Source: Zestosphaera sp. (GTDB lineage: Archaea > Thermoproteota > Thermoprotei_A > Sulfolobales > NBVN01). Taken from it: DNA of 64,000 nt. Positions 21,630-33,390 of this stretch are shown in pieces (position 1 is the first letter of the stretch; every line of letters begins with the position of its first letter). The stretch spans positions 423,051 through 487,050 of the forward strand of contig JAVYVJ010000002.1 in NCBI GenBank assembly GCA_038727705.1, given 5' to 3'. The notes beneath the pieces were generated by a model. That model worked only from the letters and a program-made list of their open reading frames with translations, was not told the origin of the DNA and ran no database searches. Position numbers and translations under genes: made by a program.

Positions 21630-22391
21630 GTGGACGCGATGATGGAGAATGTCGTTGCGAGGGCTCTGGTCCTGGGCCTGATCCCGGCGTTCCTAACTTC
21701 CGTGGGAGGGGTTGCAGGCCTCATAGGCTTGAGAGGCTCGGAGAAGCATCTCGACCTAGGGCTGGGTTTCAGCGCTGGGGTAATGACGGTGACTTCATTC
21801 ACGAGCCTCCTGCTTCCGGCGATGAGGGTAGGGGGGTTCCCGATCCTCCTCGCAGGCTTCAGCTCAGGGGTTATTTTAGTAGTGATTCTTAACAAGTTCA
21901 TACCGCATGAGCACCTCATGAAGGGTTACGAAGGCCCTGCCGTGATTAAAGCAAGGATTAAGCGTGTCTGGCTTCTGGTCTCCGCGATCCTAATACATAA
22001 CATCCCTGAAGGGCTTGCCGTGGGGAGTTCATCGGTATTCAGCCTGAGCAACGGCCTGCTCACGGCCCTGGCTATAGGGCTTCAGGACATCCCGGAAGGA
22101 TTCGCTGTATCTTTCCCAATAGCCGCTGCAACGAAGGACGTGAGGAAGGCTCTACTCATAGCATCCCTGAGCGGCTTAAGCGAGACCGTGATGTCGGTTG
22201 CAGTAGCCCTCATGACAACCTCGACCACCCTCCTGGCCTTCACCCTATCACTGGCCGGGGGCTCGATGATCTACGTAGTCAGCCACGAAGTGATACCGGA
22301 GACCCACAGATATGGTCATGAACACCTCTCAACCGCCGGGTTCTTGACAGGCTTCCTCACGATGCTGCGGCTTGACACCATGTTCAGCTAG
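21630..22391 (+). CDS. ZIP-family divalent metal transporter
   Basis: 253-residue membrane protein with about eight hydrophobic segments. The metal-binding helix 4 motif is HNIPEGLAVGS and the helix 5 motif is LQDIPEGFAVSFP. A further FIPHEH lies in the loop before helix 4. ZIP proteins carry Zn, Fe or Mn inward. It follows feoB by 6 bp, so iron or zinc under the same control is likely. GTG 21630 is used; ATG 21639 and 21642 are alternatives. Confidence 0.92.
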   Translation: MDAMMENVVARALVLGLIPAFLTSVGGVAGLIGLRGSEKHLDLGLGFSAGVMTVTSFTSLLLPAMRVGGFPILLAGFSSGVILVVILNKFIPHEHLMKGYEGPAVIKARIKRVWLLVSAILIHNIPEGLAVGSSSVFSLSNGLLTALAIGLQDIPEGFAVSFPIAAATKDVRKALLIASLSGLSETVMSVAVALMTTSTTLLAFTLSLAGGSMIYVVSHEVIPETHRYGHEHLSTAGFLTGFLTMLRLDTMFS

Positions 22392-22580
22392 GCGCGTCAC
22401 AGCGCTGAAGGCCTGCGGACGCATCCCCCTCTAGGATTCCTTGACTATAATTTATTTTTACTGCAATTCATGAAATCTTATACAGTATTTTCAATTGCTG
22501 TGAAAAAAAATATGAATTATTATTTCCTAATTATAGAAATAGTAAAGTTTTTAAAGCCTTCCTAATCCACTATTAAAGGT

Positions 22581-23984
22581 GTGTCTCCGGTGATAGAGTC
22601 GATAGATGTTGCAACGTTCGTCGTTTATCTGCTAGCCCTTCTTGGAGTAGGTCTCCTGACTGCTAGGTGGACTAAAACCTTCGAGGACTTCTCGGTAGCC
22701 GGTAGGAGGATGAAGGCGTGGCTCGCATTCTCAACTATTGCTGCAACGTGGATAGGCGGGGGCATAACCATCGGGGTCGCCGGTAAGGCCTACGCCGGGA
22801 AGATGATAGGTGCTTGGGGGACGACCATAGGCTTCGGCACAACGCTGCTCATACTGGGGCTCTTCTACGCAGGCCCGTTGCGGAGGCTGAGGCTCTACAC
22901 GCTGGCCGACTACTACACCTCCAGATTCGGGAAGGCGTGGATCGGGGGGCTGGCGGGAATCATAATGTTTATCGCGTACGTCTTCGCGGTGACAGCCCAG
23001 ATAGTGGCGGGCGCGGTCCTTCTGTCAACGGTCTTCGGGTGGGACTACAGCGTTTCAGTCCTGGCGAGCGGGGGTGTAGTGATTGCGTACACAGTCATGG
23101 GAGGGTTGTGGGCTGTGGCTATGACGGACTTCATACAGCTCCTAATAACGTTCTCAGGAATCCTGGCGGCGCTCGCCATCGGCGTGAGCTATGTGGGCGT
23201 ATCAACTCTAACCCCACTGGTTAATGACGCCGGCGTCTTCGACCCGAGGGTGGTGCTCACCATGGATTTCTGGGCGCTCTTCCTCGTGCTAGCGCTGGGG
23301 GACATACCGGCACCAGACCTCGTGCAGAGGGTCTACGCGTCCAGCGACGACAGGACGGCCAAGATTTCATCAATCCTTGCAGGCTTCGCCTACTACGCGG
23401 CCGGCCTCGTCTCGATAATGGTGGGGATCATTATGAGGTTCCTCGATTCAGGTCTGCCCGATCCTCAGCTAGCGTATCCGGCAATGATCAAGTACTTCCT
23501 CCCAGCAGGCCTGTCGGGACTCACTTTAGCAGGGCTGATGGCCGCGGTAATGAGCAACGCGGACAGCATGCTCTTAGCACCATCAACCGTGTTCGTCAAG
23601 AACGTTGTCAAGGATCTAATCAAGGGGGATTTAGGCGATGCGGACTTGCTTAAGGTGAACAGATATGCTGTAGTAGGGTTAGGCGTTCTGGCGTTGATGG
23701 CCGGCCTGCTCAGAGCCGACGTTCTATACTGGCTTAGCCTGGCCTTCGACGTGCTGTTTGCAAGCCTCTTCATACCCCTCACCTTAGGCCTCTTCTGGCG
23801 CAGGTTCAACTGGCAGGGCGCAGCATCGGCGATAATATTCGGTGCCGCCTCAAGGTTGATCCTTGAGTGGATGCTGAATGAAGGAATGATCGCTGACTGG
23901 TGGGTGGCTAGCCTCGGAGCACCGCTAGTTAGCCTGATAGCCGGGATGACCGTCGCGTTAGCAACGTCGGGCGGAAGTCAGTAA
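22581..23984 (+). CDS. sodium:solute symporter (SSS family)
   Basis: 467 residues with about 13 membrane helices. Family markers are FSVAGRRM near residue 40, ATWIGGGITIGVAGKAY, LYTLADYYTSRFG, and LAGLMAAVMSNADSMLL, the Na+ site region. Substrate (proline, other amino acid, sugar or carboxylate) cannot be told. TATA-like GTTTTTAAAG at about 22547-22556 and GTG 22581 indicate a leaderless transcript. Sequence between the ZIP gene and this one (22392-22580) is AT-rich, with a poly-A run and no gene. Confidence 0.9.
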   Translation: MSPVIESIDVATFVVYLLALLGVGLLTARWTKTFEDFSVAGRRMKAWLAFSTIAATWIGGGITIGVAGKAYAGKMIGAWGTTIGFGTTLLILGLFYAGPLRRLRLYTLADYYTSRFGKAWIGGLAGIIMFIAYVFAVTAQIVAGAVLLSTVFGWDYSVSVLASGGVVIAYTVMGGLWAVAMTDFIQLLITFSGILAALAIGVSYVGVSTLTPLVNDAGVFDPRVVLTMDFWALFLVLALGDIPAPDLVQRVYASSDDRTAKISSILAGFAYYAAGLVSIMVGIIMRFLDSGLPDPQLAYPAMIKYFLPAGLSGLTLAGLMAAVMSNADSMLLAPSTVFVKNVVKDLIKGDLGDADLLKVNRYAVVGLGVLALMAGLLRADVLYWLSLAFDVLFASLFIPLTLGLFWRRFNWQGAASAIIFGAASRLILEWMLNEGMIADWWVASLGAPLVSLIAGMTVALATSGGSQ

Positions 23985-24015
23985 CGTGGGAGCCTAATAT
24001 TTGAGGCTATAAAGA

Positions 24016-25020
24016 TTATTTTTCTAAACCCTCCAAAGCACTCGCCATGGTCTGCAGGAAGAACTCCATCTCCTCAGGCCTGCCCACAGAGACCCTTACG
24101 TAGTTGCTGAACTCCCTGAGGTCCTCCACATTCTGCAGGCATAGGGTGAGCACCCCCCTGCCTTTGAGTTCACCCCATAAGTCCCTGCAGGGCCTCCCCA
24201 GATCCACTAAAATGAAGTTGGTCTGACTCTCCACAGTCCTCAAACCCATCTCCTCAAGCCCCCTCCTAGTCCTCTCCCTAGTCTCGACTATCGACCGCAC
24301 TACCTCCCTCACGTACTGAAGGTCTTTAAGAGCCCCCAGGACGGCGGCCTGAGTCGTCAGAGGCACTTCGAAGCCTATTCTGAGGCTGTTTAACACCCTC
24401 TTAACCCCCCTACCCAGGACTGCGTAGCCGAACCTGGCTCCCGCAAGGCAGAATGATTTCGACACGCTCCTGATGATCGCCACGTTATCAAGTTCGGCGG
24501 CCAGGTCCTTGAACGTGACTCCGGAGAACTCGTAGTACGCCTCATCCACGAAGACGGCCTTAGCCCGCCTAGCCACCTCCCTCACGACGTCAGGGTCTTG
24601 GAGCAGGAGATTGCCGGTCGGGTTGTTAGGGTTTATTATGTAGACGAGCCGGCCCTCACACCTCCTAAGCAGTTCCTCAACATCCAGGGTGAAGGATTCA
24701 CCGCGCAGACTCAGGTACTGCGATCCCACCCCATAACTTCTTGCCAGGCCGTACATCACGTGGAACGTCGGGTGCGTGGCCACGAGATCTAGGCCTGCAA
24801 CCCTAGCGTAGGTCAGCATGAGGGTCAGCACGGCTGAAGAACCTGGGAACACCTCTATCAAACCCTCATCAACCCCCACGTACTTACTCAGCTCGCCCAT
24901 CAACTCATCGTAGAGTGCTTTGTCATAATACAGGTTCAGAGACCCAGCATACCTGTTGACATATTCAATCGAAATTCTTGAAGGCGGGTAGGGCGATTCA
25001 TTCATGTGCAACCTAAGCAT
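24016..25020 (-). CDS. HisC-like class I/II aminotransferase
   Basis: PLP aminotransferase of 334 residues related to histidinol-phosphate aminotransferase. LHMNESPYPPS is the N-terminal HisC motif, INPNNPTGN the cofactor loop, VFVDEAYYEF the Asp-Tyr pair, and SVSKSFCLAGARFGYAV contains the PLP lysine. The frame is open to 25080, but ATG 25020 gives the family N-terminus and avoids the overlap with the MFS gene. No other histidine genes are nearby, so an aromatic-amino-acid or other transaminase role is as likely. Confidence 0.85.
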   Translation of the reverse strand: MLRLHMNESPYPPSRISIEYVNRYAGSLNLYYDKALYDELMGELSKYVGVDEGLIEVFPGSSAVLTLMLTYARVAGLDLVATHPTFHVMYGLARSYGVGSQYLSLRGESFTLDVEELLRRCEGRLVYIINPNNPTGNLLLQDPDVVREVARRAKAVFVDEAYYEFSGVTFKDLAAELDNVAIIRSVSKSFCLAGARFGYAVLGRGVKRVLNSLRIGFEVPLTTQAAVLGALKDLQYVREVVRSIVETRERTRRGLEEMGLRTVESQTNFILVDLGRPCRDLWGELKGRGVLTLCLQNVEDLREFSNYVRVSVGRPEEMEFFLQTMASALEGLEK

Positions 25021-25030
25021 GAGCGGACAC

Positions 25031-26257
25031 CTAATTACAACTAGCGTCCATATCCTTAAAAGCCGGCGGTGAAGACCCACCGCAACCCCTCATTTTCTTA
25101 AGCACTAGAGCCACGGAGATCGTGGCTGCCGCTGTGAGCACGTAACCCAGGAAGTCCATGCTTAAGTGGGGGTTGACTAGAAGCGGCAGCAGCATCAACC
25201 CGCCCAACGCGTCGAAAGCTATCACCAATCCGAAGCCTGAGGTCATGACATCCTTAGGCACCTGCTTAGCTATGTAGGTGTTGATCGCCGTGTCTAGGAA
25301 CGGGTATAACGGAAGCTGCCAGATAAGTATGGATACCCAACCCCAAGACTTTACGAAGAGCCAGTAGTCTATGAGGTAGGCTGTCGTGACTAGAGCGAAT
25401 AGTACAAGCGGGTTATGTCTATCCGTGAGTTTGCCCGCGATAATTCTGGCCGGTATTGAGAGGATCGCCGTGAACCCGCCGTAGACCAGTCCGAAGAGGG
25501 TGTACTCCGTCAGCCTCGAGGACGAGCCCACCAGATTCTCGAGCTCCATGCTCAGCTTAGACGGGGCCACAGAGTACAGGAGCTCCCTGGAGAAGACCGT
25601 TAGGGAGACCGCTATCAACACCGGGGCTAACTTACTGAGGACGCTGTCGACATTGATGACCCTCCCGCCGCGTGCAGTCGCCTTAATGTCAGCGCTCTCC
25701 GGGAAAAACGCGATCAGCATAGAGTACGTGGCTAGGTGCGTCACGACCATCGTTGTGAAGACGCCTTCAGGGCCCGCGATCCCGTAGATGGGGCCCATGC
25801 AGGCTGATCCGATGCTGTAGCCGAGGCCCGTCCCTATCGTGAAGTAACTGTACGCTCTCCCGGGACTGACGCTTGAGTCACCTAAGACTGTCGAGAGCAC
25901 GGACGGCCATGAGATAGCCCACGTCAAGCTGTAGAAACTCAGAATCACGGCTAAGGTGATGGGATCCCGCACTCCCGGGGCCGCTAAGAACGGGATGCAT
26001 CCCGCGGCGCCAAGGAGTATTAAATTCCTCTCACCGACCCTGCCCGTCAGCCTACCCATAACTGCAGCGAAAAGGGTGAAGCCCCACTCAAGCCCGGTGA
26101 TCAGGATAACTGCTTGAAGGCCCCCGCCGAGCTCAACACCTATATAGCGTCTGGTGAACGAGAAATACAGCCCCCAGGTGGCCATGTACAGCGTCGCCGC
26201 CACGGAGTACATAGCCCGCCACACGACCACACCGATCCTCGATCCCCTCCTGAGCAT
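25031..26257 (-). CDS. MFS transporter
   Basis: 408-residue major facilitator with about 12 helices. The loop 2-3 region reads GRLTGRVGERNLILLG, and the equivalent in the second half is RIIAGKLTDRHNPLV. Ten bases separate it from the HisC-like gene on the same strand, so the two may be an operon, for instance exporting or importing the amino acid handled by the transaminase. Substrate unknown. Confidence 0.85.
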   Translation of the reverse strand: MLRRGSRIGVVVWRAMYSVAATLYMATWGLYFSFTRRYIGVELGGGLQAVILITGLEWGFTLFAAVMGRLTGRVGERNLILLGAAGCIPFLAAPGVRDPITLAVILSFYSLTWAISWPSVLSTVLGDSSVSPGRAYSYFTIGTGLGYSIGSACMGPIYGIAGPEGVFTTMVVTHLATYSMLIAFFPESADIKATARGGRVINVDSVLSKLAPVLIAVSLTVFSRELLYSVAPSKLSMELENLVGSSSRLTEYTLFGLVYGGFTAILSIPARIIAGKLTDRHNPLVLFALVTTAYLIDYWLFVKSWGWVSILIWQLPLYPFLDTAINTYIAKQVPKDVMTSGFGLVIAFDALGGLMLLPLLVNPHLSMDFLGYVLTAAATISVALVLKKMRGCGGSSPPAFKDMDASCN

Positions 26258-26399: not shown

Positions 26400-28019
26400 C
26401 TATATCCTTAAGTAAGCTCTTAAAGTGTACATTACGAACGACACTATCGCGGAGCCCCCGACCGCCCCGGCTCCACCTACGTAGAATATGTCCCTTAACC
26501 CCTCAGCCCCCAGGGCTTTGACTAGTGCCAGCCTAGCGGCTACAGTGACCAGCACCGCTATGCCGGCCGGCGGGTTGGAGATCATCAGCCCCGTGGCTAG
26601 GAGTATCCCTATCTGCCTCTCAGGCCCTCCGATGAGCTGCAGTATGAAGCCTACCGGTGCCCACGTCAGCAACCATCTCGCCAACTCAGGATCCGCCGCC
26701 GCTTTGGCGGTGGCGGCTAGGGTTCTGGCTGCCGGTGGGTACAGGTTTAGACCTGCGAAGTATGCGTTGTAGAATATAGCCACCATGATTAGCGACACTG
26801 CCAGGGAGAGTATCTTAGCGTAGAACTGCCATCTCCTCCCTATTTTCTCGAAATTCGGGTCCTTCCCCTCACCCCTGAGGATCCATCCAGTCTTCAGATC
26901 GTAGTTGAGGTCCGCCATGCCAGGCCCTGTGGCGGCGACGTACGCCACGCCTATCCCTGCGGCCAGCGGCGGGAAGCCGAAGATCAGGCTTATGGCTAGC
27001 GCGGCCAGCGCTGTGGCGAAGGCGGGGAACCAGCCTGCATGCATTCCTGATAGAGCGCAGACAAGGGTTGTGAACCAGGCCTGGAAGCCTATGTAGACAA
27101 CCCACAGCAGGAACATCGCCGGATTCATCATCCCGCTGACGCCCGTCATTAAGCCGGCGACTAACGCGCCGGCAGTGAAGAGGATGAACGCCATAACTAA
27201 CCTCCTTATAGCTTCGTCCGCGCCCACGAGAGTCGGTGGAGCGCTGGACGCGGATCCCGACGACGATTGAGTGCTTTGCTTCCTCCTGACCCTGAAGTAG
27301 AGGAGGAGGAACTGAATCAGCGCTGCAATGCCGGCGCCCACCATTATGCCTTGAGGCGCGTATATCTTATAGAAGTCTATGCCCACCAGCGTCGGTCCGT
27401 ACGCCCTCAATACCAAACCGATGCCGAAAGACGTTATGGCTACTACCTGAGTTATGAGGGTTATGCCGACGACGTCGCCTGGATAGCCGAGGTATGTGAG
27501 CGCCCCGCCGAAGATCATGCCGTAGAGCAGGAGCAACGCCCTCTTACCCCTGCCTAAGGCCGCTTTGATGGCCTCGGCCGTGGCTATGCCCGGCGGCCAC
27601 GGGTTCCTGGCTGGGTAGAACGGTGAGTCGAATATCCAGTAGGCGAACAGTATGTCCACCACACCCGCAATGAGGACCCCCATCACGACCCCGTAGAAGT
27701 ACGTGCCCCCAGTGAGTCCCAGAAGGTACGGCACCGCTATCGTAAGCAGGAACACGTTCCCGGCCTGGAACGTCGCCCCCGATATCACCGTCTGCATCAA
27801 GTTGATTCTGTGCACGTTACGCATGTTCCTGGCGAACTGGACAGGTATGGTTGAGAACGCTATAGCTATGAGAGCGCCGATGATGGAGGTATTCGGGTTA
27901 ACGCCAACCCTGCATATAAGCTCCATACCGATTATAGCGCCGAAGACCGCCAGAGCGAGCCCCATAATCATTACGATAGGCTCGTACAGTTTTGGATGAT
28001 ATCCAGCGGATTCAGACAC
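26400..28019 (-). CDS. OPT-family oligopeptide transporter
   Basis: 539 residues with about 14-15 membrane segments. Recognisable OPT sequence is NPWPPGIATAEAIKA, plus VQFARNM and GGPERQIGI regions. OPT carriers import peptides or metal-chelator and peptide-like compounds with protons. The gene is transcribed away from the DUF1177-to-M29 operon across a shared 176-bp promoter region, which strongly suggests that it brings in the substrate of that operon. ATTTAAATA at about 28054-28062 gives a TATA box for a start at ATG 28019 with little or no leader. Confidence 0.88.
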   Translation of the reverse strand: MSESAGYHPKLYEPIVMIMGLALAVFGAIIGMELICRVGVNPNTSIIGALIAIAFSTIPVQFARNMRNVHRINLMQTVISGATFQAGNVFLLTIAVPYLLGLTGGTYFYGVVMGVLIAGVVDILFAYWIFDSPFYPARNPWPPGIATAEAIKAALGRGKRALLLLYGMIFGGALTYLGYPGDVVGITLITQVVAITSFGIGLVLRAYGPTLVGIDFYKIYAPQGIMVGAGIAALIQFLLLYFRVRRKQSTQSSSGSASSAPPTLVGADEAIRRLVMAFILFTAGALVAGLMTGVSGMMNPAMFLLWVVYIGFQAWFTTLVCALSGMHAGWFPAFATALAALAISLIFGFPPLAAGIGVAYVAATGPGMADLNYDLKTGWILRGEGKDPNFEKIGRRWQFYAKILSLAVSLIMVAIFYNAYFAGLNLYPPAARTLAATAKAAADPELARWLLTWAPVGFILQLIGGPERQIGILLATGLMISNPPAGIAVLVTVAARLALVKALGAEGLRDIFYVGGAGAVGGSAIVSFVMYTLRAYLRI

Positions 28020-28195
28020 TGAGATACCACCACATCTATAACCCCTGCCAGGTATTTAAATATATTTATTTTTTATATACTTAACTGAGTAAAGTTTAGA
28101 GCAACGCTAGACTATTTTTAAACATAGCGCAGTTAACTTGAGAATGCTGGAGAAGGTTTAAAATGGGTGTAAGGTATTCTAGATTGTGGTCAGTC
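28020..28195. promoter_or_regulatory. divergent promoter region of the OPT/DUF1177 cluster
   Basis: Holds a minus-strand TATA-like ATTTAAATA (28054-28062) for the OPT gene and plus-strand candidates ATTTTTAAAC (28114-28123) and GGTTTAAAAT (28156-28165) for DUF1177. The second plus-strand box would place transcription near 28190, just before ATG 28196. No perfect palindrome was noticed. Confidence 0.6.
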
Positions 28196-29143
28196 ATGTC
28201 CACCTTAAAACACGTACTGGAAGTGATCGACCTTCTGGATGACCCTAGAGTCGGCGGTGAGGCCGTCAGGAGGTTCTTCACCGGCAAGGGCTTCACCGAC
28301 ATTCAGGTCGGTGTGGAGACTATTCACGGTGACAAGGGTTCAACGGACTTCATAACCATAGTTATTCCCGGGGGGAGCGGTAAGAGCTCGGGAGGCTCGT
28401 CCCCGACGCTGGGGGTTGTGGGCAGGCTGGGAGGGGTCGGTGCCAGACCTGCGTATTTGGGCATGGTCTCCGACGCTGACGGCGCGGTCGTCGCGCTTGC
28501 CACCGCGTACAAGATCGCTGAGATGAGGAGTCGCGGTGATGTGCTGCCGGGCGACGTCGTCATCACCACCCACATCTGCCCTAACGCGCCGACACGTCCA
28601 TACAAGCCCGTCCCCATGATGGACTCCCCGGTCGACATATTCACCCTGCTTAAGAGGGAGGTCAGGGATGAGATGGACGCCGTACTCTCGGTCGACGCCA
28701 CTAAGGCTAACTGGGTTATAAAGCACACGGGCTTCGCCATAACTCCGACTGTTAAGGAGGGCTGGATACTGAGGGTCAGTCCCGATCTGACGGACATATA
28801 CGTGAGGGTCACCGGTGAGCCCCCTGCGGTGGTCCCGATAACGATGCAGGACATAACGCCTTACTCGACCCCCATCTACCATATAAACAGTATAGTGCAG
28901 CCGTGGCTCTACACGAAGTCGCCCGTGGTCGGGGTCGCCATAACCGCTAGGATGGCGTTGCCGGGGTCAGGGACGGGACCCACCAACTTCATAGCTCTGG
29001 AGCAGTCGACCAGGTTCGTGGTTGAGGTTGCTAAGGACTTCACCATGGGGAGGGCGAGGTTCTACGACCCGCAGGAGTGGGAGACCATAATCAAGGTGCA
29101 CGGCCCTGTCGCGGACGTGTTCAGGAGGAACATACCAAAGTAG
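28196..29143 (+). CDS. DUF1177 family protein
   Basis: 315 residues, starting MSTLKHVLEVIDLLDDPRVGG as in this family. The frame is open from 28163, but ATG 28196 fits the family start and promoter. Conserved blocks visible are LGVVGRLGGVGARP, MVSDADGAVVALATAYKI, GDVVITTHICPNAP and a late GTGPTNFIALE. The His-Cys block and acidic residues suggest a metal-dependent hydrolase fold, but no activity is known to me for the family. First gene of a tightly packed operon with racemase, DUF917, AroM and an M29-like enzyme. Confidence 0.85.
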   Translation: MSTLKHVLEVIDLLDDPRVGGEAVRRFFTGKGFTDIQVGVETIHGDKGSTDFITIVIPGGSGKSSGGSSPTLGVVGRLGGVGARPAYLGMVSDADGAVVALATAYKIAEMRSRGDVLPGDVVITTHICPNAPTRPYKPVPMMDSPVDIFTLLKREVRDEMDAVLSVDATKANWVIKHTGFAITPTVKEGWILRVSPDLTDIYVRVTGEPPAVVPITMQDITPYSTPIYHINSIVQPWLYTKSPVVGVAITARMALPGSGTGPTNFIALEQSTRFVVEVAKDFTMGRARFYDPQEWETIIKVHGPVADVFRRNIPK

Positions 29144-29164
29144 TTACATGGTTAAGTGATCATC

Positions 29165-29836
29165 ATGAAGTACACAGTCGGGTTGGTGAGGGTTTTAACC
29201 CTGAAGGACGAGGAACTGCTGAATCTCCACGGCAGGATTATCGAGTCACTGTTCCCGGAGCTGAGGGTTGTTAGCAGGTGTATTGAGGATCAGCCTAAGG
29301 GAATCTACGACCGTGAGTCTGAGGAGGTGGCTAGACCTAAAGTCCTCAGGCTGGCGAGGGAGTTTGAGGGTGAGGGGGTTAACGCAGTTATAGTCAGCTG
29401 CGCCGCGGATCCGGCGGTAAGGGAGGCTAGGAAGGTGCTCAGGATTCCGGTCATAGGCGCCGGTTCAGCGGCGGCGTCCCTCGCTCTAGCCTACGGCGAT
29501 AGGGTCGGCGTGCTGAACCTCACTGAAGACACGCCCGAGGTCGTTAGAGGGGTTCTAGGGCCTCACTTAGTGGCTGAGGGGAGACCTGAAGGAGTTAGGA
29601 ACACCCTAGATCTAATGACTGACTGGGGTAAGGAAGCGGCTGGGAGGGCGCTGAGGGACCTGCTCAAACACGGTGTCGAGGTGGTCGTGTTGGCGTGCAC
29701 CGGTTACTCCACGATAGGGTTTGCCAGAATTGCGGGGGAGATGGCTGGGGTGCCCGTAGTGGATCCCGTGGTGGCTGCAGGCGCTGCGACGTTGAATCTC
29801 TTGAAGCAGAGGGCTGGAGGGGGTGCTGTGAAGTGA
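29165..29836 (+). CDS. aspartate/glutamate/hydantoin racemase-family protein
   Basis: PLP-independent racemase fold of 223 residues. The two catalytic cysteines expected for this family are present in VSCAADPAV (about residue 79) and LACTGYST (about residue 178). The N-terminus YTVGLVRVLTL fits the hydantoin racemase/Asp-Glu racemase superfamily. ATG 29165 is preferred; GTG 29156 is in frame. The stop overlaps the start of DUF917 as GTGA. Likely epimerises the amino acid or hydantoin-like substrate of the operon. Confidence 0.85.
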   Translation: MKYTVGLVRVLTLKDEELLNLHGRIIESLFPELRVVSRCIEDQPKGIYDRESEEVARPKVLRLAREFEGEGVNAVIVSCAADPAVREARKVLRIPVIGAGSAAASLALAYGDRVGVLNLTEDTPEVVRGVLGPHLVAEGRPEGVRNTLDLMTDWGKEAAGRALRDLLKHGVEVVVLACTGYSTIGFARIAGEMAGVPVVDPVVAAGAATLNLLKQRAGGGAVK

Positions 29837-30906
29837 GGGTTAAGGTTGACGATAAGACCGCCGAGGCAGCGGTCCTGGGCGGGTCGTTCTTCGGCGGCGG
29901 TGGTGGGGGAGACCTCAAGACGGGGCTGCTGAGCGCGAGGCTGGCCGTCGAGCTGGGCGATCTCTACATAGTTGATGTGGACGAGGTTCCGAGCGGTAGC
30001 TACGTGGTTACAGCCTCCCTCGTGGGGGCTCCCGCCGCGAAGGAGAGGTACCTGAAGCCTAGCCACATGGTGAGGTCTGCCGAGTTGCTGAGGGACTACG
30101 GCGGGGTGTGTGTAGGGGGCTTCATATCCTCGGAGAACGGCGGCGCCTCAACCGCCAACGGGTGGATACCTGCAGCAGCTCTCGAGATCCCGGTGATCGA
30201 CGCGCCCGCCGACGGTAGGGCCCACCCGACCGGCGTGATGGGTTCCATGGGCCTCCACAAAGTTAGGGAGTACACCTCAGTTCAGGCAGCCGTGGGCGGG
30301 AATAAGGAGTCAGGGACCTACGTTGAGGTGGTTGCACGCGGGTCTCTAGCTAAGGTCGACAAGCTGATTAGGGAAGCGTCTGTTCAGGCAGGCGGTATGG
30401 TGGCCGTGACCCGCAATCCCGTCAGCCCTGAATACCTCAAAGAGAATGCGGCAGTTGGAGCGCTCAGCAAGGCCGTGGAGGTCGGCAGGATAATGAGGAG
30501 GCATTACGGGGACGCGGAAAGCATCGCGGCGGAAGTGATTAAATACCTTGGCGGCGGACGCGTGGTGGATAAGGGGGTTATCGACAACGTCTCACTAGAG
30601 ACGCGCGGTGGGTACGACATAGGGAGGGTAGTGGTCAAGGGAGGCCTCAAGTCCTACGAGATCACGTTCTGGAATGAATACATGACGCTGGAGGACGCAA
30701 GCGGGGTGAGGCTAGCCACCTTCCCGGACCTGATAGTAACCCTAGATCTTAAGACGTCCCTCCCACTCCCGTCAGCCGAGGTCAAGACAGGTGATGAAGT
30801 GCTTATTGTAACGGTTCCGAAGGAGTTCGTGCCGCTCGGCGCGGGCGTCAAGGACCCTGAGATCCTGAAGCAGGTTGAGGCAGTCGTTGGCAAGAGGATG
30901 TGGTGA
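29833..30906 (+). CDS. DUF917 (S-methyl-thiohydantoin desulfurase-like) protein
   Basis: 357 residues from GTG 29833, which overlaps the racemase stop; the open frame upstream of it is not coding. Glycine-rich GGSFFGGGGGGDLKTGL at the N-terminus, then ENGGASTANGWIPAAALEIPVIDAPADGRAHPT, are the family hallmarks. The family is now named for S-methyl-thiohydantoin desulfurase and is related to the hydantoinase/oxoprolinase group. Glu and Asp/His residues in the second block may bind metal or the ring. Supports a hydantoin or cyclic-amide substrate for the operon. Confidence 0.85.
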   Translation: MRVKVDDKTAEAAVLGGSFFGGGGGGDLKTGLLSARLAVELGDLYIVDVDEVPSGSYVVTASLVGAPAAKERYLKPSHMVRSAELLRDYGGVCVGGFISSENGGASTANGWIPAAALEIPVIDAPADGRAHPTGVMGSMGLHKVREYTSVQAAVGGNKESGTYVEVVARGSLAKVDKLIREASVQAGGMVAVTRNPVSPEYLKENAAVGALSKAVEVGRIMRRHYGDAESIAAEVIKYLGGGRVVDKGVIDNVSLETRGGYDIGRVVVKGGLKSYEITFWNEYMTLEDASGVRLATFPDLIVTLDLKTSLPLPSAEVKTGDEVLIVTVPKEFVPLGAGVKDPEILKQVEAVVGKRMW

Positions 30907-30912
30907 GACGCT

Positions 30913-31578
30913 GTGAGGAAGGTAGGTCTCATAACCATAGGTCAGTCCCCCAGAGTTGATGTAGTTCCCGAGATCAGGAAGGTGTTGGAAGACGCTGGCG
31001 TGGAGATAGTTGAGTGCGGCGCGCTAGACAAGCTTAGCAGGGAGGAGGTCAAGGCCCTAGCGCCCGGGGAGGGCGAGTACGTGCTGGTAACCAGGCTCAG
31101 AGACGGCGCTGAAGTTAAGGTCGCGCGTGAGAGGATACTCCCGCTGATGCAGGAGTGCATCAACTCGCTCGAACCGCTCGTGGATGTGTTGGGGTTACTC
31201 TGCACGGGCGAGTTCCCGGAACTTAGGTCCAGGAAGCTGCTGGTGGAGCCCTCAGACCTCCTCCTGAAGGTTGTTGAGTCCCTTAAGGCAGGCAGGCTGG
31301 GCGTCGTAGTGCCGGACCCAGCACAGGTGGATCTAACGAAGAGGAAGTGGCTTGGGGCGGCATCAGACATTAAGATTCTTAGCGTATCGCCATATACAGG
31401 GACTCTGGAGGATCTCGTGAGGGCCTCTGAGGAGCTGGGGGACCGTGACTTGATAGTGCTGGACTGCATAGGCTTTAGCACGGAGGCTAAGAGGGCGGTG
31501 GCTACAGCCTCAGGGAAGCCTGTCCTAATACCGAGGACCTTGCTGGCCCGCGTTTTGAGGGAACTGCTGGAGGCGTAG
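30913..31578 (+). CDS. AroM family protein
   Basis: 221 residues with the AroM N-terminal signature KVGLITIGQSPRVDVVPEI, then LPLMQECINSLEPLVDVLGLLCTGEFPEL with a cysteine in the position typical of Asp/Glu racemase-like folds, and VLDCIGFS near the C-terminus. The two Cys blocks suggest a relative of the racemase superfamily. AroM has no agreed function despite its name. GTG 30913 starts 6 bp after DUF917; the next gene begins 3 bp after its stop. Confidence 0.85.
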   Translation: MRKVGLITIGQSPRVDVVPEIRKVLEDAGVEIVECGALDKLSREEVKALAPGEGEYVLVTRLRDGAEVKVARERILPLMQECINSLEPLVDVLGLLCTGEFPELRSRKLLVEPSDLLLKVVESLKAGRLGVVVPDPAQVDLTKRKWLGAASDIKILSVSPYTGTLEDLVRASEELGDRDLIVLDCIGFSTEAKRAVATASGKPVLIPRTLLARVLRELLEA

Positions 31579-31581
31579 AGG

Positions 31582-32571
31582 GTGAGCCCCCAGAACTTAG
31601 GCGTCGAGATTAAGGAGACCTTGCTTAGAGCGGCGGAGACCGCCCTAACGCGTTGCTTACGTGTTAGGGCGGGCGAGTCCTTGCTGGTGATCACCGACGA
31701 ACCCCTGAGGAACATAGGCCTCCACCTGTGGCTGAAGGCCAGGGAGTTAGGGGCTGAGGCTGTTTACGTCGAGATAATTCCCAGGAGCGTTCACGGCGAG
31801 GAACCCCCTAAACCCGTAGCCGAGGCTATGAAGGCGTCAGACGTGGTGGTGGCGCCGACTTCGAAATCGATAACGCATACGGTAGCTAGGAAGGAGGCTG
31901 CCGAGAAGGGCGCTAGAGTCGCCACCATGCCAGGCATAACGGAGGACATATTCATCAGAACCATGAGCGTGGATTACGAACTAGTTCAGAGGGTGACTAA
32001 TGCGGTGGCCGACGTGCTGGATGAGGGTAGGGAGGTCAGGGTCGTCACAGACCTCGGCACTGATTTGACCTTCTCTATAGAGGGCAGGAGGGCGAGGAGG
32101 AGTACCGGGGTGCTGGTTAATCCGGGGGATTGGGGGAACCTGCCCAGCGGTGAGGCATACATAGCCCCTGTGGAGGGCACAGCGAACGGGGTCGTAGTCG
32201 TAGACGGATCCATGGCAGGCGTTGGATTACTTGCACAGCCGATAAGAATAGCCTTCAGGGACGGCGTAGCCGCCCGCATTGAGGGGGGTCCGGAGGCGGC
32301 GAAGCTTAACGAGCTGCTCTCAAGGTATGGGGATGAAGCTCGAAGTCTGGGTGAGTTCGGCGTCGGGACCAACCCAGGGGCTCGAGTAAGCGGCGTCGTG
32401 CTGGAGGACGAGAAAGCGATGGGGACTATCCACATAGCGCTTGGAAGCAACTTCGACTTCGGCGGCAGGGTTAAAGCACCGGTGCATCTGGACGGCATAG
32501 TGATGAAGCCGAGCGTGTACGTGGACGGGCGCCTGTTGATGAGGGAGGGCGTGCTCCTCATAAATACCTGA
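31582..32571 (+). CDS. M29 aminopeptidase-like / dihydroxypyridine-dioxygenase-like protein
   Basis: 329 residues related to thermophilic M29 aminopeptidases. The C-terminal metal-binding region shows NLPSGEAYIAPVEGTANG, GEFGVGTNPGA and MGTIHIALGSNFDFGG, matching the Glu/His/Asp pattern of the family. Close homologues in the same superfamily are 2,5-dihydroxypyridine dioxygenases, so ring opening is an alternative to peptide hydrolysis. Last core gene of the cluster; the start is GTG 31582. Confidence 0.8.
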   Translation: MSPQNLGVEIKETLLRAAETALTRCLRVRAGESLLVITDEPLRNIGLHLWLKARELGAEAVYVEIIPRSVHGEEPPKPVAEAMKASDVVVAPTSKSITHTVARKEAAEKGARVATMPGITEDIFIRTMSVDYELVQRVTNAVADVLDEGREVRVVTDLGTDLTFSIEGRRARRSTGVLVNPGDWGNLPSGEAYIAPVEGTANGVVVVDGSMAGVGLLAQPIRIAFRDGVAARIEGGPEAAKLNELLSRYGDEARSLGEFGVGTNPGARVSGVVLEDEKAMGTIHIALGSNFDFGGRVKAPVHLDGIVMKPSVYVDGRLLMREGVLLINT

Positions 32572-32597
32572 TCAATGCTTCTATCGCGTGGTGATAC

Positions 32598-33104
32598 ATG
32601 GTGTTGGACGTGATTAAGGGCAGGAGGAGCGTGAGGAGCTTCAGGAGTGAGTCCATACCTGAGGAGCACTTGAGGACCATTCTTGAGGCGGGCGTGTGGG
32701 CGCCGAGCGGCAGCAACGCACAGCCATGGGAGTTCGTGGTGGTTAGAAGTAAGTCCACTATAGATAAGGTAAAGCTGTTCTCACCAGGCCTCTTCGGGAG
32801 CCCTGACGCAGTGGTGGTTCTGTGCGTCAATAGGGAGCGTGTCAAAAGGAGCGGTAAGTCAGGTGACTCAGTAGCGTTGATGGATGTGGCTATGGCGGCA
32901 CAGAACATGATGCTGGCGGCGTACTCCCTAGGGATCGGCTCATGCCCTATAGCCTCCTTCAATAAGGTAGCTGTTAAGGAGCTGCTCGACATCCCCGCGC
33001 ACGTCGACCCGGTCCTGATGGTGAGTTTCGGGTACCCGGAGAGATGGCCTGAACCGCCTAAGAGAAGACCTCTCGACGAGGTAGTGCACTATGAGAAGTA
33101 CTGA
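32598..33104 (+). CDS. nitroreductase-family flavoprotein
   Basis: 168 residues. RRSVRSF and APSGSNAQPWEFVVV are the FMN-binding N-terminal motifs; AAQNMMLAAYSLGIGSCPI and SFGYPERWPEPPKRRP complete the family pattern. It uses NAD(P)H to reduce nitro groups, quinones or enones. It lies 26 bp downstream of the M29-like gene and probably belongs to the same transcript. Confidence 0.9.
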   Translation: MVLDVIKGRRSVRSFRSESIPEEHLRTILEAGVWAPSGSNAQPWEFVVVRSKSTIDKVKLFSPGLFGSPDAVVVLCVNRERVKRSGKSGDSVALMDVAMAAQNMMLAAYSLGIGSCPIASFNKVAVKELLDIPAHVDPVLMVSFGYPERWPEPPKRRPLDEVVHYEKY

Positions 33105-33390
33105 GGACATCGTTAGAGACGAGCACTTCAAATTGCTGGCGTTCCTCATAACGAGCGCTAGAGGATGTGTTGACGAACCACACCTCTACGGCCCCCTCAG
33201 ACTGGTGGACGCCGCGTCAAAACTCATAGACATAATGAAGCTGGAGGGTAAAGCCCCTGAAGGGCTTGAGAGGGTTCAGAAGACGATCGAGGAGAGGAAG
33301 CACTTGCTAATGCATGATGAGAGGAAGTTCATAGAGTTTCTAGACGAACTCGTTACGGAGCTCGTTAATATAGTTAAGGGAGTGGCTTAG
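33091..33390 (+). CDS. small helical protein, DUF6092-like
   Basis: 99 residues, almost all helical, with charged amphipathic segments such as IVRDEHFKLLAFLITSARG and LVDAASKLIDIMKLEG. It overlaps the nitroreductase end by 14 bp, so it is translationally coupled. The resemblance to the small DUF6092 proteins found beside nitroreductases is from memory and not verified. It could be a partner subunit or regulator. Confidence 0.65.
   Translation: MRSTEDIVRDEHFKLLAFLITSARGCVDEPHLYGPLRLVDAASKLIDIMKLEGKAPEGLERVQKTIEERKHLLMHDERKFIEFLDELVTELVNIVKGVA

Follow-up and report, generated by a model that had tools for sequence, protein, structure and literature searches.

The gene cluster at positions 26400 to 33390 of the window, the 64,000-nucleotide stretch of DNA from the hot-spring archaeon Zestosphaera sp. 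that was analysed, represents a probable import-and-degradation module, widespread and sometimes plasmid-borne, in which AroM and DUF1177 are the most constant pair. Its likely role is to take up a small peptide compound, cyclic or of mirror-image form, and to break it down. An OPT transporter gene on the minus strand diverges from a plus-strand series that runs from DUF1177 through the racemase, DUF917, AroM, the M29-like enzyme and a nitroreductase to a small protein:

26400..28019, minus strand: OPT-family transporter, 539 aa (Pfam OPT, E 8.7e-14)
28020..28195, no strand: divergent promoter region (TATA-like boxes; alignment of the region from relatives)
28196..29143, plus strand: DUF1177 protein (Pfam, 403 bits)
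29156..29836, plus strand: two-Cys PF01177 racemase/epimerase of the Asp/Glu/hydantoin superfamily (PF01177, E 2e-24)
29833..30906, plus strand: DUF917 / S-Me-THD-like enzyme, 357 aa (S-Me-THD_N and _C matches)
30913..31578, plus strand: AroM (Pfam, 246 bits)
31582..32571, plus strand: M29-like metallopeptidase, short form, 329 aa (PF02073, E 1.3e-13)
32598..33104, plus strand: putative CDOA (AlbA-like) FMN dehydrogenase subunit, nitroreductase family (best PDB matches 9exv, 8uc3)
33091..33390, plus strand: putative CDOB (AlbB-like, DUF6092) small partner subunit (PDB matches 8uc3_D, 9exv_C)

An earlier note, made from the sequence, had described a transporter and enzyme genes arranged divergently, and profile searches recovered all of its genes and families. 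Its spacings are exact: the racemase and DUF917 genes overlap by 4 bp, AroM follows DUF917 after 6 bp, and the M29-like gene follows AroM after 3 bp. Intergenic spacing on the plus strand ranges from -14 to +26 bp, the extremes being the 14 bp overlap between the nitroreductase and small-protein genes and the 26 bp gap in front of the former. The divergent region spans 176 bp; its alignment with those of relatives shows that OPT is preceded by a TATA-like box, TTTAAATAC as read on the minus strand, that is seen again in several relatives, with GGTGGT preceding OPT and GGTCA preceding DUF1177. Because relatives begin with ATGTCN with GGTCA ahead of it, the true DUF1177 start is probably the ATG at 28196 rather than the ORF-tool start at 28163.

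Co-occurrence of these families in distant genomes exceeds chance by far. Of the 38 well-covered loci, 21 have an AroM gene no more than 6 kb from DUF1177, and both families are present in 10 of 163 archaeal genera, against 1.8 expected, with Haloferax volcanii also having both; tight pairs across loci number 22 for DUF1177-AroM and 18 each for racemase-DUF917 and DUF917-DUF1177. Thermococcus and a haloarchaeon have near-complete versions of the cluster, as do a megaplasmid of Niallia and a conjugative plasmid of Klebsiella; no near-identical copy of the Klebsiella operon is present in E. coli complete genomes. The earlier note had staked its reading on the families being found together elsewhere, and they clearly are. 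The importer varies among loci (OPT, Dpp ABC, ECF, NCS1 or SBP-type ABC), as would be expected of a substrate-specific catabolic module. Dpp is found near DUF1177 in 14 of the 38 loci and OPT in six. OPT and DUF1177 genes are neighbours in Niallia, Klebsiella and Sodalis and in several archaeal relatives. The exchange of OPT for Dpp-type ABC and other importers supports the proposal of peptide-like import. The NCS1 permease was considered as an Mhp1-like hydantoin permease, but its sole PDB match is a cytosine permease, which is no proof of hydantoin transport. Common peptidase partners are M20, M29 and PepE/S51. The logic of importer plus peptidase is shared with Dpp/Opp-fed peptide catabolic operons, and bacterial versions of the cluster carry IclR-type regulators, but ordinary peptide use involves no pair of racemase-fold enzymes and neither DUF1177 nor DUF917.

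DUF1177 is predicted to adopt a zinc-aminopeptidase/glutaminyl-cyclase fold and is likely to be a hydrolase. Foldseek with its AlphaFold model (pTM 0.90) returned M17, M28, M20 and glutaminyl cyclases with a best E of 1.8e-9, yet with TM-scores of only about 0.5 and identities of 8-14%. The prediction draws on structure comparison only, because HHalign of the DUF1177 profile against M28 and M20 was not significant, although invariant D/H residues exist; a sequence search against the PDB gave no match. D95, D97, T127, D169, D221 and H231 are conserved in 99-100 of 100 homologues and H128 in 90 of 100, in a numbering where residue 3 is the Met at 28196.

The racemase closely resembles 2eq5 from P. 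horikoshii (E 3e-92), and its cysteines C82 and C181 are conserved in 37/37 and 38/38 sequences. Both catalytic cysteines are shared with allantoin/hydantoin racemases, whereas the diagnostic Thr118/Thr119 substrate-binding pair of KpAllR is replaced by N121/L122, positions that vary in the subfamily (a numbering shift of 2 in the PDB chain being assumed). AroM, whose gene has been known for decades to adjoin aroL in E. coli, belongs, by its fold and its two cysteines, to the Asp/Glu racemase superfamily: its AlphaFold model (pLDDT 97) matches allantoin and aspartate racemases and maleate isomerase in Foldseek, and HHalign aligns both of its cysteines with those of the racemase. C97 is conserved in 55/55 sequences and C185 in 49/55, with Ser in the other six. 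The earlier note was right that DUF1177 and AroM are parts without an assigned function, but a hydrolase fold is predicted for the one and the two-Cys racemase fold is recognisable in the other. A racemase-family enzyme, OpaE, epimerises a ketopiperazine-fused ring (PMC12661438); its similarity to the racemase is weak.

The M29-like protein aligns with NicX, PepS and AmpT and keeps all five positions that we take to be metal ligands (E191, E258, H284, H302 and D304), which places it, on sequence, with the aminopeptidases and not with the NicX dioxygenases; the earlier suggestion of an M29/dihydroxypyridine-dioxygenase relative thus holds on the M29 side. It is shorter than two-domain M29 enzymes (329 against about 410 aa), and it matches the profile over positions 190-351 of 406.

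What had been noted as an attached nitroreductase and small helical protein is instead, judging by PDB matches and residues, a CDOA/CDOB cyclodipeptide-oxidase-like (AlbA/AlbB) pair with its catalytic residues kept. The nitroreductase matches 9exv (E 7e-34) and 8uc3 (E 9e-34), and R9, R13, S39, N40, C116, P117, S120 and R156 agree with AlbA, where the FMN-site and catalytic residues R24, R28, S54, N55 and R175 correspond to R9, R13, S39, N40 and R156. The small protein matches 8uc3_D (3.9e-6) and 9exv_C (2.2e-5), its E29, P30, Y33 and R37 corresponding to AlbB E33, P34, Y37 and R41. Both subunits and these residues are common to this pair and AlbAB. The covalent-FMN Cys115 of AlbA is D96 here, so that the pair is better called CDO-like than a CDPS-type CDO; no CDPS gene is a neighbour. 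A CDO is present in only 4 of 80 DUF1177 loci; the Salinigranum nitroreductase was rejected as CDOA, being a different, longer nitroreductase, and that locus hence has no CDO.

From the computed gene set, conservation, folds, catalytic residues and importer exchange, we lean somewhat towards a transferable catabolic module for a peptide-derived cyclic and/or D-configured compound, of which we infer the substrate, the order of steps and the exact DUF1177, DUF917 and AroM reactions. OPT would bring in a small peptide-derived compound resistant to ordinary peptidases, diketopiperazine- or hydantoin-like, and the CDO-like filament enzyme might optionally oxidise its C-alpha/C-beta bond. The racemase and AroM, as two two-Cys epimerases, would correct the C-alpha stereochemistry of the ring or an intermediate; DUF917 would work on the heterocycle, like its thiohydantoin-desulfurase relatives; DUF1177, a predicted metal-dependent amide hydrolase, would open or trim the molecule; and the M29-like aminopeptidase would free amino acids. 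Besides the recurrence of the set in distant lineages, OpaE and the NCS1 permease and HyuA genes near some DUF1177 loci speak for this reading; against it speak the missing Thr pair of the racemase, the DUF917 score under the desulfurase cut-off, the low TM-scores and non-significant profile comparison of DUF1177, and the lack of a CDO in most DUF1177 loci. The earlier sequence of import, epimerisation, ring opening and hydrolysis thus survives as a single module with peptide-like import, epimerisation and hydrolysis, its substrate being still a proposal. A bolder version, which we think rather unlikely, makes DUF1177 a new metallo-amidohydrolase class that opens the ring of cyclic dipeptides (diketopiperazines) or similar compounds once AroM-type epimerisation has taken place, in a first general, mobile prokaryotic pathway of diketopiperazine use, with heat-formed cyclic dipeptides feeding hyperthermophiles.

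The module might alternatively salvage linear peptides that have suffered chemical damage (D-Asp, iso-Asp, succinimide): the racemase and AroM would work on residues of the Asp type, and PepE, M29 or M20 would complete the breakdown. The Klebsiella and Sodalis plasmid operons, which run OPT-DUF1177-AroM-PepE (Asp dipeptidase)-Asp/Glu racemase with neither DUF917 nor CDO, speak for this, as does an AstE/aspartoacylase gene within the Salinigranum operon; since it leaves the DUF917, HyuA, NCS1 permease and CDO partners unexplained, we consider it improbable. Still less probable is degradation of ureides or nucleobase-type compounds (hydantoin, allantoin, dihydropyrimidine), proposed for CDO-like clusters by Andreas et al. 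(PMC11055893). PucR regulators lie near some clusters, and Thermoproteales, Ktedonobacteria and Planococcus have NCS1 permease and HyuA genes in the neighbourhood of DUF1177; but the importers are mostly of peptide types, this genome has no HyuA, and the racemase lacks the Thr pair. The same three points separate the cluster from hydantoin utilisation (racemase, HyuA/HyuB, N-carbamoylase), with which it has in common the racemase superfamily, M20 enzymes and, in some loci, DUF917 near HyuA. Ergothioneine or thiohydantoin catabolism via DUF917 is very unlikely: DUF917 does score 302 bits with the thiohydantoin desulfurase model NF058529, which speaks for it, but this falls under the curated cut-off of 440. 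Ergothioneine catabolism is expected to need ergothionase (Lyase_aromatic) and urocanase-like genes; urocanase-type and Lyase_aromatic genes are absent from the genome, where ATP-dependent hydantoinase and His-ammonia-lyase-type genes were likewise not found, and literature searches on ergothionase and thiohydantoin returned nothing on DUF917. Least likely is that the cluster makes an oxidised cyclic dipeptide of the albonoursin kind. The AlbA/AlbB-type pair would fit, but the neighbours are hydrolases and importers, Asp stands where CDPS-linked CDOs typically have the covalent Cys, and the genome has no CDPS match (a weak point, since control genomes are silent too).

The catabolic module that we favour is not wholly undescribed, as had been supposed. 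PF01177, DUF917, AroM and OPT were reported in 2024 to be enriched around CDO-like genes (Andreas et al. 2024, PMC11055893), in non-CDPS clusters that combine CDOA/CDOB with OPT or peptide ABC importers as here, and archaeal cases (Thermococcus, Thermoprotea) are mentioned. The word DUF1177 is absent there, a literature search for it gave a single, unrelated paper, and most DUF1177 clusters found here have no CDO; DUF1177 as a hub and the exchange of importers appear to be new. The pairing of AroM with DUF1177, together with the folds, leaves a short list of substrates on which both families can be tested, and the import-and-degradation module would give non-CDPS cyclodipeptide-oxidase filaments a catabolic role.

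Gene calls and family profiles bear out the divergent arrangement of an OPT transporter gene and a run of enzyme genes proposed in the earlier note, together with its gene spacings; the last two genes, encoding the nitroreductase and the DUF6092 protein, overlap by 14 bp.

26400-28019, - strand, OPT transporter (family profile)
ending at 33390, + strand, in order: DUF1177, PF01177 racemase, DUF917, AroM, M29-like protein, nitroreductase, 99-aa DUF6092 protein

Sequence comparison places the DUF1177 start codon most likely at 28196, because a matching ATG begins the genes of relatives and an upstream GGTCA is common to them; a TATA-like box 5' of OPT is likewise seen again in several relatives. 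The region upstream of the cluster (21630-26257) encodes a sodium:solute symporter, an MFS transporter and, judged by eye, a ZIP-like membrane protein of 253 aa and a protein resembling aminotransferases; no tie between these neighbours and the cluster was seen.

The families postulated to belong together do occur together beyond chance. Among 398 genomes of the phylum, DUF1177 is present in 33, full-length AroM in 25 and both in 17, where 2.1 are expected (hypergeometric 3e-15); counted by genus, so as to limit the effect of relatedness, the two are found together in 10 genera versus 1.8 expected (1e-7), and they lie about 7 kb or less apart on one contig in 10 of the 17 genomes with both. 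We also compared 80 named DUF1177 loci, ordered by how closely they resemble the window's family and thus not a random sample, and used for neighbour counts the 38 with at least 5 kb on each side. Within 6 kb of DUF1177 these contain AroM (21), racemase (13), DUF917 (13), M29-like (12), Dpp permease (14) and OPT (6) genes, and one or more of the four enzymes is encoded there in 30 of the 38. Closely spaced same-strand neighbours include DUF1177-AroM (22 loci), racemase-DUF917 (18) and DUF917-DUF1177 (18).

We favour a role in which the cluster would import, and then degrade stepwise, a peptide-derived compound that is cyclic and/or D-configured, the substrate classes not being separable by sequence. 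A diketopiperazine is favoured by the peptide importers, by analogy with the epimerase OpaE and by the cyclodipeptide oxidase (CDO)-like pair formed by the nitroreductase (CDOA) and the DUF6092 protein (CDOB). For each of these two proteins, the top two PDB matches are complexes of AlbA and AlbB (9exv, 8uc3). When the positions that Andreas et al. (2024; PMC11055893) single out are carried over through alignments, AlbA R24, R28, S54, N55, C135, P136, S139 and R175 correspond to R9, R13, S39, N40, C116, P117, S120 and R156 of CDOA, and AlbB E33, P34, Y37 and R41 to E29, P30, Y33 and R37 of CDOB, and the position of the covalent Cys115 of AlbA is taken by D96; mutating Y37 or S54 abolished or strongly lowered CDO activity (PMC11055893). 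The racemase, in which both cysteines are invariant, is close to P. horikoshii 2eq5 and weakly similar to OpaE, a two-cysteine epimerase of a ketopiperazine-fused ring (PMC12661438). A hydantoin is favoured by HyuA, NCS1 and PucR neighbours elsewhere, but the window racemase has Asn-Leu where allantoin/hydantoin racemases carry a Thr pair. PepE and aspartoacylase neighbours point to Asp-type peptides. HyuA, urocanase and Lyase_aromatic were looked for in the window's genome and none was found; this makes ergothioneine catabolism unlikely and would leave ring opening to the cluster or to an unrelated enzyme. The setting of hydrolases and importers likewise makes a biosynthetic role unlikely.

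AroM matches the racemase by HHalign (97.7%, E 1.7e-12), which pairs racemase C82 and C181 with AroM C97 and C185, and among PDB folds its predicted structure (pLDDT 97) is best matched by allantoin racemase, aspartate racemase and maleate isomerase. The predicted DUF1177 structure (pTM 0.90) resembles M17, M28 and M20 catalytic domains and glutaminyl cyclases (TM ~0.5); D95, D97, D169, D221 and H231, invariant or nearly so, and the mostly kept H128 are candidates for a putative metal site. M29-like proteins near DUF1177 are of two subtypes, E/E/H/H/D (aminopeptidase-like), to which that of the window belongs, and Q/H/E/H/D (NicX-like). The window DUF917 (302 bits) is nearer thiohydantoin desulfurases than the HyuA-linked Planococcus DUF917 (102), yet below the model's cut-off of 440.

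The cluster is patchy in the window's GTDB family, with DUF1177 in four of the members checked besides the window's genome, and with OPT and CDO present in some of their clusters and absent in others. In a genome of the same genus (G357) DUF1177 is missing from a cluster on a 3.4-kb contig, which may be an assembly gap since the contig is cut on both sides. Further afield, the order is racemase-DUF917-DUF1177-AroM-M29-OPT-M29-M20-racemase-CDOA, then the contig end, in Thermococcus (L110); PucR-racemase-OPT-DUF917-DUF1177-AroM-M29 on a Niallia megaplasmid; Dpp-DUF917-DUF1177-AroM-M29-nitroreductase-racemase-AstE/AspA in Salinigranum; and IclR-OPT-DUF1177-AroM-PepE-racemase on both a Klebsiella conjugative plasmid and a Sodalis plasmid. 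The Klebsiella copy (L171 7556-12963, NZ_CP057460.1), from cattle faeces, is a compact operon amid transposase genes, and E. coli complete genomes hold no near copy. The Niallia plasmid DUF917 (L176 8900-9969) and the OPT of L056 (8888-9895) both seem to be broken into two frames, through decay or sequencing error.

Related modules were also seen. The window's genome has a second one (G000:C1:604000-623999; L141, 9300-18000) with AroM, M29-like and racemase genes and a divergent SBP-DppBCDF importer, without DUF1177 or DUF917. Sulfolobales-type DUF1177 genes (~35% identical; L046-L050) lie beside an FAD-linked oxidase and an M20 peptidase, not AroM/DUF917, and probably represent a different pathway. 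At L146 (5266-12330), where DUF1177 is absent, a CDO pair is flanked by a racemase and two HyuA-DUF917 pairs, which makes this a second type of CDO cluster in archaea.

PF01177, DUF917, AroM, OPT and peptide ABC genes are known to be enriched around non-CDPS CDO genes, and hydantoinase and isomerase roles have been put forward (PMC11055893). The word DUF1177 turned up in one paper, an unrelated one, in the literature searched, subscription papers being outside its scope; what seems to be new is DUF1177 as a hub, its fold, the minimal operon on plasmids, a core independent of CDO, and the exchange of importers. Among the 38 loci, five have OPT only, 13 Dpp only and one both, the last (L100, Alkalihalobacillus) having DUF1177 in two distinct clusters, where Dpp-M20-IclR accompanies one copy and PucR-racemase-OPT-DUF917-AroM the other. 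The closest relative (L051) has a different SBP/ABC set instead of OPT, an ECF-type importer (CbiQ and ATPases) adjoins the cluster in L058 and L087, and an NCS1 permease and HyuA are neighbours in Thermoproteales (L038, L044, L067, L068), Ktedonobacteria (L099) and Planococcus (L175). Such swapping would fit a catabolic core that is substrate-specific and whose uptake system can be exchanged.
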